Virus record (IMG/VR): IMGVR_UViG_3300036791_000441
Coordinates: 1-44,358 of that record
Reading direction: 5' to 3' (one strand)
Length of the DNA stretch: 44,358 nucleotides
Source of the DNA: a virus
The notes under the pieces are model-generated. The model had not been told where the DNA came from. It did no database searches and worked only from the letters and a program-made list of their open reading frames with translations. A program made the position numbers and the translations under genes. This document shows, in pieces, positions 9,846-43,792 of the stretch (its first letter is position 1; the number at the start of each line of letters is the position of its first letter).

Positions 9846-10105
9846 ACGACATCTTCTGCTTCGAGGTGCAGTGCCTCGGCTGCGGGCGCAACATGAACGC
9901 GCACAGCGAGGTCACGCCGAATCCCGATCCCCAGCCGCCCGTCGAGGGCAACATCGCCATCTGTTTCAAGTGCGGCGCCGCTATGATCTTCGATGAAGAC
10001 CTGAAACTGCGCTGGCCGACCGAGCAAGAGAAACTCGAGTTCAAGAGGGACGACACCGATAAAGCCATCGAGTGGGTGCGCTCGCAGCGCCCGGTGCATC
10101 ATTGA
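9842..10105 (+). CDS. Small zinc-ribbon protein
   Basis: An 87-residue protein with two CxxC pairs: CLGC near residues 11-14 and CFKC near residues 41-44, the spacing of a zinc ribbon. A polar Pro-rich loop lies between them, and the C-terminal part is charged and helical (PTEQEKLEFKRDDTDKAIEW). Such ribbons bind nucleic acid or act as protein docks. Starts and ends on short overlaps with its neighbours. Metal binding likely; partner unknown. Confidence 0.7.
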   Translation: MNDIFCFEVQCLGCGRNMNAHSEVTPNPDPQPPVEGNIAICFKCGAAMIFDEDLKLRWPTEQEKLEFKRDDTDKAIEWVRSQRPVHH

Positions 10106-10212
10106 GCCGGGAAGCCTGGCAGTGGTTTAACGCCGCTTGGCTCTTCGGGCTTGCGCTGGTGGTGACTGTCGGCCTTTACCTTCTGGTCGAGAAGATCAAA
10201 CGACGGGGATAA
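10102..10212 (+). CDS. Membrane miniprotein, 36 residues
   Basis: TTG 10102 overlaps the previous stop (TTGA). The product has one membrane span (AAWLFGLALVVTVGLYLLV) followed by a basic tail (EKIKRRG), giving a positive-inside anchor. Part of the membrane miniprotein series. Function unknown. Confidence 0.55.
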   Translation: MSREAWQWFNAAWLFGLALVVTVGLYLLVEKIKRRG

Positions 10213-10216
10213 CAAG

Positions 10217-10432
10217 ATGCACCCATCCACCTACGAATATCTGAAGCCAACCGACGATCAGATGAAGCGCATGGAAGCACTGCGCGAAGCCGCCAGAGTT
10301 TATGGCGATGTGCTGGAGCATTTGCTGCCGGATGGCCCCGACAAGACCTTCGTGATCCGGGCGCATCGGTCGAATGCCATGTGGGCCAATGTCTGCGTAA
10401 CGCGACTGCCCGACGGCACGCCAAGAGAATGA
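10217..10432 (+). CDS. Acb2/Tad1-type cyclic-nucleotide sponge (hairpin domain)
   Basis: A 71-residue protein that fits the Acb2/Tad1 hairpin pattern: an N-terminal YLKPTDDQMKRMEALREAA (Tyr...Pro...Gln, then the RM/RY-E-x-x-R helix), a Pro-led turn (LLPDGPDKTFVIR) and the strongly characteristic MWAN motif at residues 54-57, followed by an Arg four residues later. Proteins of this family form compact oligomers that bind cyclic di- and trinucleotides or cyclic ADP-ribose variants. They thereby switch off CBASS and Thoeris defence. The position, among tiny accessory genes behind the replication module, is usual for anti-defence genes. The segment between the Pro turn and MWAN departs from the commoner L-R/E-x-A form, so ligand preference cannot be predicted. 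The family call is from recalled motif, not a search. Confidence 0.68.
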   Translation: MHPSTYEYLKPTDDQMKRMEALREAARVYGDVLEHLLPDGPDKTFVIRAHRSNAMWANVCVTRLPDGTPRE

Positions 10433-10542
10433 TCGCGATCCCGGTTTTCCTGGGAATTCTGCTCGCCATCGCCATCGAGCTGTGGGTTCGCTACTACACG
10501 AAAAGACACTTCTTGCGCAGGCGCCGGAGGCGATTAGGGTGA
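10429..10542 (+). CDS. Membrane miniprotein with basic tail, 37 residues
   Basis: ATG 10429 overlaps the stop of the sponge-like gene (ATGA). It has one span (AIPVFLGILLAIAIELWV) and a very basic end (RHFLRRRRRRLG) that should stay in the cytoplasm. Coupled translation with the gene before it is notable. Function unknown. Confidence 0.55.
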   Translation: MIAIPVFLGILLAIAIELWVRYYTKRHFLRRRRRRLG

Positions 10543-10564: not shown

Positions 10565-10684
10565 ATGGAGACACGGAGATACACGCGGACACCGCGCTGG
10601 GGTGCGTATCTCTATACCCTCTTTCTCATGGCCATAAGTTTTCTTATGGTCCGCTACTTTCACCAGAGGGGAGCCGGGCCGTGA
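10565..10684 (+). CDS. Membrane miniprotein, 39 residues
   Basis: ATG 10565 has GAGGGGAAGG upstream. Basic N terminus (METRRYTRTPRW), then one span (GAYLYTLFLMAISFLMV) and a short basic tail. The stop overlaps the GTG start of the next gene. Good ribosome site, so likely expressed; function unknown. Confidence 0.55.
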   Translation: METRRYTRTPRWGAYLYTLFLMAISFLMVRYFHQRGAGP

Positions 10685-10851
10685 ACATTGTCATCCTCAT
10701 TCTCATCTTGGTGCTGCTCCTCGGGGGCGGCTATGGCTATTACGGCGGCTGGCACAGCAACTTCGGCGGGCCCTACTACTATGGCGGCGGCATCGGCCTC
10801 GTCGTGCTTCTTCTGATCATTCTTCTCATCTTCGGCGGCAGGGTCTTCTAG
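10681..10851 (+). CDS. DUF3309-like small membrane protein
   Basis: GTG 10681 follows GAGGGGAG. The 56-residue product has two hydrophobic segments (IVILILILVLLLGG and IGLVVLLLIILLIFGG) around a Gly/Tyr-rich loop (YGYYGGWHSNFGGPYYYGG). This is the layout of the DUF3309 family of small bacterial membrane proteins, often found in alphaproteobacteria. It may have been taken from a host. Role unknown; a holin-like role is possible but there is no specific sign of it. Confidence 0.6.
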   Translation: MNIVILILILVLLLGGGYGYYGGWHSNFGGPYYYGGGIGLVVLLLIILLIFGGRVF

Positions 10852-10860
10852 GAGGGGTCA

Positions 10861-12189
10861 ATGGCGAAACAAAAAGTCGCGACGTTCCAAGCCGACGTGA
10901 CCGTTTCTGGAAGCACCGACGACGGCACCGCACAGATTCTTATCGTGCAGCGCCTCGAAGCCGAGACACCGCCGCCGGACACCGAACAGCCTCCGGTTTC
11001 GCCCCCAGTGTCCCCTCCAGTGTCCCCGCCCGTCTCGCCGCCTGGCGCCTTTACGCCGCCCTCTTACCTGCGCACCGACACCAGCAAGGTGCCCGTGCCC
11101 AACGTGGCGCGCCCGGCCTATCTCGCTCCTTATACCGACCCGAACTTCAAGACCCGGATCGTGCGCATCACCGGCAACGAAGGGGCCAGCATTGAGGGCA
11201 TCCCAGGAAGTCGCTGGGGCGAGCTGTGCAGGCATCACTACAACAGCGACCAGGCCTGGAGCTGCGACGAGAAGCTCATCTACCTGGACATGAACGACGG
11301 CGGTTCGCCGAGTGCCCTTTTTCTCGATGGCGAAAGCTATCGCCCCCTGTTCGGGCCCGCGAACAAGCCGTCGAGCGCGGATATTCGTTGGCACCCGACC
11401 AAGCCGGGGATCATGCTCGCCGCCTCGGGCTCGAAGTTCCTTGAATGGAACCCGAAGACCGGAGCGCAGCAAGTCCTTGGAGACTTCGACGACTTCGACG
11501 ATCTGACGATGGGGCCTTGGGAAGGCTCGCCGAGCGCTGACGGCAAGTTCGTGGTGCTGACTTCTGATAGTCAAAAGAATGCTTTCGTCTTCGACATCGA
11601 GCATGGGGATGCGCACCCCACCATCAAGGGCTCGAAGTTTGGTGAGTTCTCCGATTGCCGCATTTCGCGCGGTGGCAATTACATGGTCTGGAAAACCTCG
11701 CCAGACGAGGTGACGATCACCGACTTCCAGGGCAATAAGATCACGCACCTCCCCAACAATTACGTGTCTCACTTCGACGTGACCGTCGACGCCGCTGGCA
11801 ACGAGGTTCTCTGCGGAAGGGTGAACTCTTCGAGTGTGGGGCAAGGCAGCTCAGGCTTGGTGAGCAAGTATCGCTTGAAGGACGGCAGGCGCACTTCCTT
11901 GCAGGCCGCCAAGGGCTGGAGTTCGCACACTTCCTGCCGCTCGAACGTGAATTACTGTGTCTCGGGGCCGACGCTGGAAGGTGGAGATTACATCTACAAT
12001 GGCGAACTCATCCTGATGAGCCTGGACGGCGGGAAGGTCTGGCGTCTGGGGCACACCCACACCCTGAACGAAGTGGAATACGTGCAGGAGACACAGCCCT
12101 CACACTCGCCCTCGGGCGGAAGAGTGATCTTCGCCTCGCCTTGGGGCACATCTGGCGTTGGCGCATATGTCGTGGATTTCAGGACGTAG
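10861..12189 (+). CDS. Beta-propeller protein with Pro-rich stalk
   Basis: A 442-residue protein with an AGGAGGGG ribosome site just before ATG 10861. Residues about 35-62 form a repeat of PPVS units. The rest (residues 75-442) reads as a beta-propeller: repeated blades with patterns such as SWSCDEKLIYLDMNDG-type and SPSADGKFVVLTSDS, FSDCRISRGGNYMVWKTS and HSPSGGRVIFASPW. The blade style (asp/gly turns before strands, HSPSGGRV near the end) resembles TolB-like or oligogalacturonate-lyase-like propellers. No signal peptide is visible. It might be a virion-attached carbohydrate-binding or degrading protein, but it sits on the early strand, away from the tail genes. Fold likely; activity not established. 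Confidence 0.65.
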   Translation: MAKQKVATFQADVTVSGSTDDGTAQILIVQRLEAETPPPDTEQPPVSPPVSPPVSPPVSPPGAFTPPSYLRTDTSKVPVPNVARPAYLAPYTDPNFKTRIVRITGNEGASIEGIPGSRWGELCRHHYNSDQAWSCDEKLIYLDMNDGGSPSALFLDGESYRPLFGPANKPSSADIRWHPTKPGIMLAASGSKFLEWNPKTGAQQVLGDFDDFDDLTMGPWEGSPSADGKFVVLTSDSQKNAFVFDIEHGDAHPTIKGSKFGEFSDCRISRGGNYMVWKTSPDEVTITDFQGNKITHLPNNYVSHFDVTVDAAGNEVLCGRVNSSSVGQGSSGLVSKYRLKDGRRTSLQAAKGWSSHTSCRSNVNYCVSGPTLEGGDYIYNGELILMSLDGGKVWRLGHTHTLNEVEYVQETQPSHSPSGGRVIFASPWGTSGVGAYVVDFRT

Positions 12190-12224: not shown

Positions 12225-12347
12225 ATGCGGACCTTGCGAGATGGGGCAATGCTTTTCGCTTTGGCTGCATGCGTCGCCGCCCTAAGCCCCATCCTCTGGC
12301 TGGGGAACTATCTCCAGAAGCGGGAGCGCCGGAAGCACGCGAGATGA
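12225..12347 (+). CDS. Membrane miniprotein, 40 residues
   Basis: ATG 12225 lies behind GAGGAGGTAAGG, one of the best ribosome sites in the window. The product has a span (AMLFALAACVAALSPILWL) and a basic tail (QKRERRKHAR). The stop overlaps the next ATG (ATGA). Function unknown. Confidence 0.6.
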   Translation: MRTLRDGAMLFALAACVAALSPILWLGNYLQKRERRKHAR

Positions 12348-40179: not shown

Positions 40180-41706
40180 ATGTCCAAGTTTTCGCACATC
40201 CCCATGCCTCGCGCTTTCCGCGACGAGATCAAGAGCGAACTCACTGCCATTCCCGGGTGGGAGCAATATCGCAAGGCGCAAGCCAAGAAACCCGCCTTTT
40301 GGGGCCGCGACGAGATTTGCGCCGCGTGCGAGGCATTAGGCCTTGATCTAGCTGACAGGCACGCGCTGTGGATTGCCCGAGGCGGCGCCCGGGACGACGA
40401 CGAAGAAGGGACGGCGCCAGCGCCGAGCGCCGAGGCCTCGTCGCCCGAGGCGGCGCCGAGCGAAAGCTTCGAAGGGCGCGACGCGGCGACGCTCATTGCC
40501 GAAGCGCTGGCGCCCGCTGGCGTGCATATGACGCCATGGCTGCAAGCCGAGTTGCCGAAACTCTTGGCACCCATGGCGCAAGCCGCCGTCACGGCGCCGC
40601 GCGAGCGCGTCGTGGAGCGCGTCGTGATCAAGAGCGCGCCGAGCGCTGGCGCCTCGACGCCGCCCGTCGTGAACGTCACGCATTGGAAGCCGGCTCGCGA
40701 GATTTTCGGCATGCGGCGCAACGCGGGCGGCGCGGCTTTGAAGCACGCGCTCGAAAACGCGCTTCTGCCAGTGTGCGATTTCGCTGGCGCGCCAAGCCTT
40801 GATCCAGACTACGCTTGGCAAAACGAGATCGTGGCGCAATTCGCCGCCATGGACAGCGAAGGCTTGAACGTCTGGACCTTCGGCGCCGCTGGCACGGGCA
40901 AGACGGAAGCCGCGATGCAATGGGCGGCGCGCATGCGGCGCCCGTTCTTCCGCATCGCCATGGACAGGACGACCGAGCCCGTCGACCTGATTGGCCAGAT
41001 GGTCTTGGCCAAGGGCGGTGGCATGGAATGGCAAGACGGCAAGCTTACGAGGGCGTTTCGCACGCCTTATGCCGTGATCCTGATTGACGAACCGACACTC
41101 TTGCGCAGCGGCACGCTTGCCGTGTTCCAAACCGCCCTCGACACGCGCAAGCTTTGGCTTGGCACTGGCGAGGTGGTCGAGGCGGCGCAAGGCATTTTCG
41201 TGATCGCGGCTGACAATACGGCTGGCGTTGGCGACGACAGCGGGCGCTATGTCGACACGAGTGCTGTGAACGTGGCGTTCCTCGATCGCTTCGCCTTGCG
41301 CATCGCCTTCGATTATCTCGACGCCGACAGCGAGACGAAAATGCTGGCGCATCGCGCCCGCCTTTCCGAGAAGGCGGCGCGCATCATGGTCGAGTATGCC
41401 AGCGCCACGCGCAAGGAAGCCAGCGCCGGGACCTTGACCATTGGCGTGACGCCTCGTCGCCTCATTGCTTGGGCGAAAGCCGTTCGCGCTGGCGTTGGCT
41501 CGCAAGTCGCCTTCTTGTCGAGTGTGATCCAGGGCAGCGCGCCCGAGGATCGCGAGGCGCTGATCATGCTCGAAACCACGTCCCTTAAGTCACGCCATGG
41601 CGAGATTGACGCCATCGCGCGAGGCCTCGTCGCGCCAGCGGCGCCGAGCGTCGAGGGCGAGGGCGAGCCGAGCGCGACCGGCATCAAGTTCCCCGAGGGC
41701 GAATGA
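40180..41706 (+). CDS. MoxR/CobS-like AAA+ ATPase
   Basis: A 508-residue AAA+ protein. The first 70 residues may be a small helical domain, then a Pro/Ala/Glu linker. The ATPase has Walker A GAAGTGKT at 235-242, Walker B VILIDEP at 299-305, sensor-like AADNT near 345 and the arginine finger region FLDRF near 368. These match the MoxR/CobS group that works with VWA-domain partners. RBS AAAAGGAA precedes ATG 40180. The VWA partner gene follows, 82 bases on. No cobalamin-pathway gene (CobN) is visible, so cobalt insertion is unlikely; a remodelling or quality-control role for the pair is more likely. Family firm; role inferred. Confidence 0.88.
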   Translation: MSKFSHIPMPRAFRDEIKSELTAIPGWEQYRKAQAKKPAFWGRDEICAACEALGLDLADRHALWIARGGARDDDEEGTAPAPSAEASSPEAAPSESFEGRDAATLIAEALAPAGVHMTPWLQAELPKLLAPMAQAAVTAPRERVVERVVIKSAPSAGASTPPVVNVTHWKPAREIFGMRRNAGGAALKHALENALLPVCDFAGAPSLDPDYAWQNEIVAQFAAMDSEGLNVWTFGAAGTGKTEAAMQWAARMRRPFFRIAMDRTTEPVDLIGQMVLAKGGGMEWQDGKLTRAFRTPYAVILIDEPTLLRSGTLAVFQTALDTRKLWLGTGEVVEAAQGIFVIAADNTAGVGDDSGRYVDTSAVNVAFLDRFALRIAFDYLDADSETKMLAHRARLSEKAARIMVEYASATRKEASAGTLTIGVTPRRLIAWAKAVRAGVGSQVAFLSSVIQGSAPEDREALIMLETTSLKSRHGEIDAIARGLVAPAAPSVEGEGEPSATGIKFPEGE

Positions 41707-41788
41707 CACTTCGAAGGGCGGCGCCGAGCGCGCCGCCTCACGAAGCGCCAATGCTTCAAACCGTAACCTGAACCAAGGAACCAACACC

Positions 41789-43792
41789 ATGTCTTCGAAG
41801 ATGATTTTACCGATGGAAATTTACGAGGCGGCGCGCGAGACGTGCCTTCGCCTTTACGTGACCAATGGCGGCAACGCTCACGACCTTTGGAAAGTGCAAC
41901 CCTATCCCGGGACAGCCGCCATCTCTTGCGAGACGAATTACAACGGGCGCCGCACCTGGACGCTCGCCATGCCGGCGCTGCCGCTCGACGTGCGCGTGCC
42001 TCGCTGGCAAGCGGACTTGATCGCGGCTTACACGGTTCACGAACTCTTGCACGCGCTTTGGTCGAATTGGGACACGGTGGCGCAATCCAAGCGCGAAGGC
42101 CTTGGCATGCTCACCAATGCGCTTGAGGATTGCCGCATCGAAGCCAAGGCCAGCGCTGGCGCCCTTCGCCTCGTTTCCGAGGCACGCCGCTTGCTGCAAA
42201 TTCTCAACGCGCACATCTACCAGCGCGCCGCCGAAAAGCCCGCCTTCAACATTGCCGACGAGAACCAATTCGCCTTCATCCTGACGCTGGTAATTTTCAG
42301 CGAAAAGCTTGGCTACGTTTCCGCCTTCCCGGGCGATTGGCGCAAGCGCGTCGCGAAGCACCTGATCCCGGTTTTCGAGCATGCGCTGGCACGCTTCCCG
42401 GCGCTGGCCTCGACCGAAGACGCGTTGCAACTCGCCCGGGAGCTTCGCGACATGGCGAAGGCGACGAAGCCCGAGCCGAAGGCGCCGAGCGCTGGCGAAG
42501 GCAAGCCCGAGACGCCGAAGGGCGACGAAGGCGACGACGACGAGGCCAGCGAAGGCGCTGGCGCTGGCGAAGGCGACGACGACGAGGCCAGCGAAGGCGA
42601 CGACGAGGGCGAAGGCGCTGGCGAAGGCGAAGGCGACGACGACGAGGCCAGCGAAGACGACGACGAGGGCGAAGGCGACGACGAGGGCGAAGGCGACGAC
42701 GCTCAGCAAGGCGCCTCGCATGGCTCAGGAAGCCCGTTCGGCGACAAGGGCGACGACGACGAGAACGACGACGGCGAAGCCGCTGGCGAGGCCTCTAATC
42801 GCGACGGCGAGACAGGCAAAGCCGGGAAGGGCGGCGACGGCGCTGGCCTCTCGAATGACGCAAGCCAAGGCGACGACGAGGCGCCCTCGCCCGATCTTTC
42901 CGACAAGGGGCAGGACTACAGCGAAGCCAATCTAGACGAGTTGTCGACAGCGCAAGGCATGCAAGAGGCGCCCTTCGCTGGCGCCGTCTTGAATGCCAGC
43001 GCGCCGCGCGTCGAGGATTGCACGCGGCGCGGCAACGCGAAGCAAATGGGCGCCGTCATCTCGACGCCAGCGAAGCTTCGCCGCCACGTCACCAGCGCCG
43101 TCAAGGCGCCCGAGCGCGTCGGCAACGAACGCTACCAGACAAGCGGGCGCCTCGACACGCGCAATGTTGCTGGCCTCGCCAGCGGCGCCGAGACGGTGTT
43201 TCGCAAGCGCGTCGAAGACGAAGGGCGGGAAGCCGCCGTCACCTTGCTGATCGACGTGTCGTCTTCGATGGAAGGCGAGCGCATCGACGCGGCGCGCGCC
43301 ATGGCGCTGCACATGGGCGACGCGCTCAAAGCCGCTGGCGTGCGCTTCGAGATCGCAACTTTCCGTCACGCTAGTGGGGACCGCGCCAGCATGTCGTTTC
43401 CGAAACCGATGAAGGCGACGTGGAACGACACGACGCGAAGCTTCGCCGCTGGCATCAGGGCGCAAGGCGGGACCGTGATGCTTCCGGCAATCAAGCATTG
43501 CGCCGAGCAATTGCTTGGCGTGCGCGCCGTGTCACGGCGAATTCTGATCGTCTTGACGGACGGCCTCGACAGCTTCGACAGCCGCGCCAACGAAATACAG
43601 TGCAAGGCGCTGGCGGCGAAGGGCGTCGAGGTTCTCGGCATTGGCTTGATGCTGACGGGGCGCGAGCTTCGCGACATGGCGACGACGTTCGCCAAGAACG
43701 TCGTTTACGTGAACGATTGCGCGGCGCTGGCGACGACCGGCCTCGCGCATCTCGTCAAGCAACTCGACAAAGCCGCGCCGAAGGGAGCTTGA
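41789..43792 (+). CDS. HExxH plus VWA-domain protein (CobT-like / DUF2201-like)
   Basis: A 667-residue protein. The start chosen is ATG 41789 with AAGGA upstream; the frame extends to 41597 but that part overlaps the ATPase gene. Residues 1-230 hold a metallopeptidase-like domain with HELLH at 84-88 (HExxH zinc motif) and a DCRIEAKA helix near 115 that may supply the third ligand. Residues about 240-375 are an extreme acidic linker of Asp, Glu, Gly and Ala repeats. The VWA domain (about 480-667) has MIDAS-type DVSSSM near 489 and TDGLDSF near 590. It should bind the ATPase through the VWA domain, and the N-terminal domain may cut or bind a target. Family likely; catalytic activity not shown. 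Confidence 0.82.
   Translation: MSSKMILPMEIYEAARETCLRLYVTNGGNAHDLWKVQPYPGTAAISCETNYNGRRTWTLAMPALPLDVRVPRWQADLIAAYTVHELLHALWSNWDTVAQSKREGLGMLTNALEDCRIEAKASAGALRLVSEARRLLQILNAHIYQRAAEKPAFNIADENQFAFILTLVIFSEKLGYVSAFPGDWRKRVAKHLIPVFEHALARFPALASTEDALQLARELRDMAKATKPEPKAPSAGEGKPETPKGDEGDDDEASEGAGAGEGDDDEASEGDDEGEGAGEGEGDDDEASEDDDEGEGDDEGEGDDAQQGASHGSGSPFGDKGDDDENDDGEAAGEASNRDGETGKAGKGGDGAGLSNDASQGDDEAPSPDLSDKGQDYSEANLDELSTAQGMQEAPFAGAVLNASAPRVEDCTRRGNAKQMGAVISTPAKLRRHVTSAVKAPERVGNERYQTSGRLDTRNVAGLASGAETVFRKRVEDEGREAAVTLLIDVSSSMEGERIDAARAMALHMGDALKAAGVRFEIATFRHASGDRASMSFPKPMKATWNDTTRSFAAGIRAQGGTVMLPAIKHCAEQLLGVRAVSRRILIVLTDGLDSFDSRANEIQCKALAAKGVEVLGIGLMLTGRELRDMATTFAKNVVYVNDCAALATTGLAHLVKQLDKAAPKGA

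Follow-up and report, generated by a model that had tools for sequence, protein, structure and literature searches.

Acb2-family sponges are known to differ in ligand. Hexamers of the family hairpin bind cyclic di- and trinucleotides, while Tad1, which has an N-terminal beta-sheet domain (PMC12043709), binds gcADPR (PMC12043709, PMC10419184). The described protein with the top PDB match to the one studied here is T4 Acb2 (Vs.4; PDB 7UQ2, with cGAMP), which has the hairpin fold and belongs to Pfam family PF24729. Acb2 homolog 43, solved with 3'cADPR (PDB 9PTQ), is in the same Pfam family and, among solved structures, is the best match to the canonical group. This group, which includes gp54 of Paenibacillus phage Heath, consists of short Acb2-like proteins (phrog_1454) of ~70-76 aa that align gaplessly with the window clade along the hairpin. 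Tad1 (PDB 7UAV, 8KBB-8KBH and others) shares the Pfam family and carries SRE...T..EE..MW.N in a C-terminal hairpin, but its chains are 123-138 aa long and include the N-terminal domain, which the window protein lacks.

Some family members were found under other names or without one. In Paenibacillus phage Heath (MH460826.1), the product of L089:783-998 is named 'putative phosphomannomutase' and is really an Acb2/Tad1 hairpin (86 bits to PF24729); five Paenibacillus phage records carry this misannotation at the match. Gene 23 of Gordonia phage ScarletRaider (L086:577-795), between the portal and RNA ligase genes, is an unannotated Acb2/Tad1 hairpin. T4 Acb2 matches only positions 202-287 of the 289 in phrog_717, and this confinement to the C-terminal third suggests that fused Acb2 forms exist in some phages.

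Family membership of the 71-residue protein

The window is the whole of a 44,358-base virus contig (IMG/VR record IMGVR_UViG_3300036791_000441). Its ORF at 10217-10432 (+) has 71 codons and translates as MHPSTYEYLKPTDDQMKRMEALREAARVYGDVLEHLLPDGPDKTFVIRAHRSNAMWANVCVTRLPDGTPRE (Table 1). The first-pass annotation had placed this ORF in the Acb2/Tad1 family on the basis of a helix motif, a Pro turn and MWAN. The Pro turn (P38) and MWAN (residues 55-58) are present as described; the helix motif, given there with a Q-x3 spacing, actually reads Q-x2-RME-x2-REAA in the translation. The profile search proposed with that assignment returned a match to PF24729 (Acb2/Tad1 hairpin) with E = 1.4e-5 and 25.6 bits, 1.4 bits short of the curated Pfam cut-off of 27 bits. 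The same profile was matched by 70 out of 70 clade members (best E = 9.2e-11), the curated cut-off was exceeded in 17 out of 22 relatives (phage records tested), and a Rhizobiales relative reached 38.5 bits. Among 14 control genomes, PF24729 had no matches in the cut-off search and sub-threshold matches in two genomes in a looser search. When the clade was compared with canonical members, T4 Vs.4 included, hhalign aligned them over the full length with 97.3% (E = 7e-11), against 0.3-1.1% for five column-shuffled controls. Sequence searches of the PDB with the window protein alone or with the clade profile matched no family member; a profile of canonical members matched chains of 9PTQ and of Tad1 structures. 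None of these proteins has a model in NCBIfam.

Table 1. Features in and around the hairpin gene (window coordinates)
Feature	Position	Strand	Basis
36-aa basic single-helix membrane ORF, TTG start, directly upstream	10102-10212	+	sequence
Acb2/Tad1 hairpin-family protein, 71 aa, divergent GPDKT/RxxR/DGxPR clade	10217-10432	+	profile, alignment, AlphaFold
Y8 codon, aligned with T4 Acb2 Y8; 69/70 in clade	10238-10240	+	alignment
Predicted helix 1, residues 13-36	10253-10324	+	AlphaFold model
Predicted helix 2, residues 41-62, bearing PDKT, R48, R51 and MWAN	10337-10402	+	AlphaFold model
R48-A-H-R51, replacing canonical T-x-L-E	10358-10369	+	column comparison
Conserved C-terminal tail DGxPR, residues 66-71 (DGTPRE)	10412-10429	+	column comparison
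37-aa basic single-helix membrane ORF, ATGA overlap with the sponge stop; unconserved beside relatives	10429-10542	+	sequence
Predicted membrane mini-protein, DUF3309	10681-10851	+	Pfam
Predicted membrane mini-protein	12225-12347	+	sequence

A predicted fold unlike the helical hairpin hexamer had, like the lack of a profile match, been named beforehand as evidence against the family assignment. The AlphaFold monomer (mean pLDDT 95.9) is a hairpin of two long antiparallel helices, residues 13-36 and 41-62, joined at the Pro turn as in PF24729, and its nearest structures are Acb2/Tad1 proteins. In a BFVD structure search, ranks 1-16 were Acb2/Tad1 hairpin proteins, bar one unnamed, with probabilities of 0.93-1.00 and an rmsd of ~1 A for the best match. 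Ranks 1-2 of the PDB structure search were T4 Vs.4 (Acb2) with cGAMP, at a weak E-value of 0.92. Weak values are normal for such short hairpins, since a canonical member (86 bits to PF24729), modelled and searched likewise, reached a best E of 0.39 (9PTQ), followed by T4 Vs.4. The 71-aa window model contains no Tad1-type N-terminal beta-sheet domain, having no strand of at least 3 residues. The PF24729 match, the hhalign result and the predicted fold bear out the original family call and support the window protein as a divergent PF24729 (Acb2/Tad1 hairpin) member.

The short length of the ORF and its score slightly below the Pfam cut-off would also fit a spurious open frame in which motif-like residues arose by chance. 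Homologues are encoded, however, by 132 IMG/VR relatives when searched with the single query and by 206 with the clade profile, the best 80 of these 206 having 60-80% identity. The alignment of 70 distinct homologues spans 71 columns without a gap, 16 of them invariant. Gene pairs among the relatives have a median pN of 0.18 and pS of 0.75, and the median dN/dS is ~0.13 in the 35 out of 79 pairs for which it was computable, the other pairs being near synonymous saturation. Given this alignment and dN/dS, the sponge-family ORF is a real gene under purifying selection, far beyond chance. The existence of more than 200 relatives and their substitution pattern, together with the confidently predicted fold, refute a chance frame, whose probability we regard as negligible. 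The window clade occurs widely among uncultured viruses, with no close relative in ~50,000 isolate phage records; these gave no DNA match, and their protein matches were weak only (E = 0.3-0.8).

Residues kept and exchanged in the clade

Column comparison showed a core common to the clade and the canonical members, consisting of F/Y6, Y8, P11, Q15, R23, P38, K43, S/T44, M55, W56, A57, N58, I/V61 and R63. T4 Acb2 is similar in having Y, then K and P, ahead of helix 1 and MW in helix 2, but it contains a long inter-helix insert that is missing from the window clade. By direct count, T4 Y8 corresponds to window Y8 and T4 T68 to window R48. The former is the ligand-essential Tyr of Acb2, whose replacement in T4 (Y8A) gives a binding-deficient protein with activity abolished (PMC12657230); it is retained throughout the window clade except for a single member.

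Helix 2 and its surroundings differ. Residues G40, P41, D42, R48, R51 and T62 are fixed in both window sub-clades, against S, R, E, T, E and A, respectively, in canonical members; that is, the canonical S-R-E...T..E block is replaced by G-P-D...R..R. Both sub-clades also have L9 in place of the canonical H and a DGxPR tail that is absent from canonical members. As the first-pass annotation had noted, the residues preceding MWAN depart from the common form. The canonical RE...T..E pattern also occurs in Tad1 and, largely so, in the 3'cADPR-binding homologue 9PTQ; the latter and the canonical short proteins keep REK...T..E in helix 2, whereas the window clade has PDK...R..R and the new tail. T4 Acb2 lacks GPDKT, RxxR and DGxPR alike.

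In T4 Acb2, T68M lowers affinity, and T68 alone among the helix-2 Thr/Glu positions has a reported binding effect (PMC12657230). The window clade does not have this helix-2 Thr and Glu (T..E); R48 and R51 are invariant instead. The missing T..E weakens the claim that the same ligand is bound, but not the claim of superfamily membership. Both the loss of the ligand-affecting T68 (Arg in the window) and the change of the conserved Glu to Arg also weigh against a nucleotide-sponge reading.

In a tree from this short alignment, with deeper placement unsure, one branch with 100/100 support separated the window group of 90 sequences from all canonical members. The two window sub-clades are distinguished by HRSNAMW and KLREVxMW. 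The sister sub-clade (L187, L190-L194 and L085) has RKLREVxMW where the window form is RAHRSNAMW, and is intermediate between the window form and the canonical one, which has L50.

Genome context, host and adjacent mini-proteins

The plus strand of the window starts with replication genes, encoding an exonuclease, a ssDNA-binding protein, a DNA polymerase and a primase, and the structural genes are on the minus strand. The sponge gene lies downstream of the replication genes, on the plus strand, within a run of small ORFs. Neighbour comparison indicated that it occurs singly, as a mobile gene, in phages of various kinds. This position past the replication genes and this single-gene mobility, as with counter-defence genes, support the sponge reading.

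In the same early operon, predicted membrane mini-proteins are scattered at four sites (Table 1). At 10861-12189 (+), a Pro-rich stretch lies close to the start of a 442-aa protein that had no Pfam or PHROG match. Further along, adjoining genes at 40180-41706 and 41597-43792 (+) encode a MoxR-like AAA ATPase and a VWA protein resembling CobS/CobT.

The first-pass annotation had described the sponge as coupled to an unusual membrane partner. The stop-start overlap (ATGA) with the downstream ORF is real, and could suggest that the sponge and this basic mini-protein form one unit, e.g. a membrane-anchored signal trap. The downstream gene, however, differs in almost all of the 70 relatives, with a hydrophobic small protein there in few, and the largest true neighbour family is found at no more than 11 out of 70 loci (after removal of the two largest neighbour clusters, both antisense shadows of the sponge gene). 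Several unrelated membrane mini-proteins also flank the sponge gene on both sides in the operon, so that compact packing of genes accounts for the overlap. The partner being neither conserved next to relatives nor unusual in the window, we rejected such a unit as very improbable.

The terminase has its closest counterparts in a Microcystis phage and in Rhizobium phage RHph_N65. A genome search for relatives of the sponge retrieved only one Rhizobiales and one Verrucomicrobia assembly; in the former, the clade relative is flanked by replication and terminase genes, and this same assembly was the only positive among 397 genomes of its order. An alphaproteobacterial host is plausible.

Proposed function and ligand

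The gene encodes a small Acb2/Tad1-family protein with a predicted helical hairpin; by likeness to solved members, it most likely assembles as a hexamer. The pockets between subunits would take up a nucleotide second messenger from host defence, with cyclic oligonucleotides of CBASS or cyclic ADP-ribose forms of Thoeris as candidate signals, and this uptake would keep the defence effector off during infection. By analogy with its relatives, we infer sequestration of a signal from CBASS or Thoeris. That it is a hexameric Acb2/Tad1-type sponge for a host-defence nucleotide signal seems to us highly probable.

The retention of the tyrosine Y8 and the basic R23 argues that the nucleotide pocket survives. 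The protein might nevertheless be a hairpin by descent only, having lost nucleotide binding through the T-to-R and E-to-R changes and acquired another role, e.g. as a binder of a host protein or nucleic acid. The clade-wide replacement of a T and E common to Tad1 and the 3'cADPR-binding homologue is consistent with such a loss, as are the basic patch formed by R48, H50 and R51 and the new tail. We consider it unlikely: the clade retains Y8, R23, K43 and the MWxN core, and its exchanged positions do not vary, whereas loss of the pocket would relax rather than fix them. Moreover, that the clade keeps a nearly fixed sequence across unrelated phages is easier to reconcile with a target of invariant chemistry than with a variable host protein.

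Under the sponge reading, the invariance of the exchanged residues points to a specific role for them, most simply an altered ligand choice. As helix 2 is more basic near a position that affects affinity in T4 Acb2, a ligand range other than that of T4-type Acb2 appears plausible to likely, binding itself being predicted. A stronger version, in which the GPDKT/RxxR/DGxPR clade is a distinct sponge group capturing an immune nucleotide unbound by known Acb2/Tad1 proteins, is tentative and, in our estimation, somewhat doubtful. If true, the ligand would perhaps be more negatively charged or pyrophosphate-containing, and the clade would indicate a defence signal with wide occurrence among the phages' uncultured hosts.

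The Acb2/Tad1 family is already known; what is new is a widespread variant clade with change at likely ligand-affecting positions. The exchange is coordinated and affects positions common to Acb2-like proteins, Tad1 and the 3'cADPR sponge. Members of the GPDKT/RxxR clade bear on whether this exchange sets ligand choice, and possibly on an unrecognised host signal.
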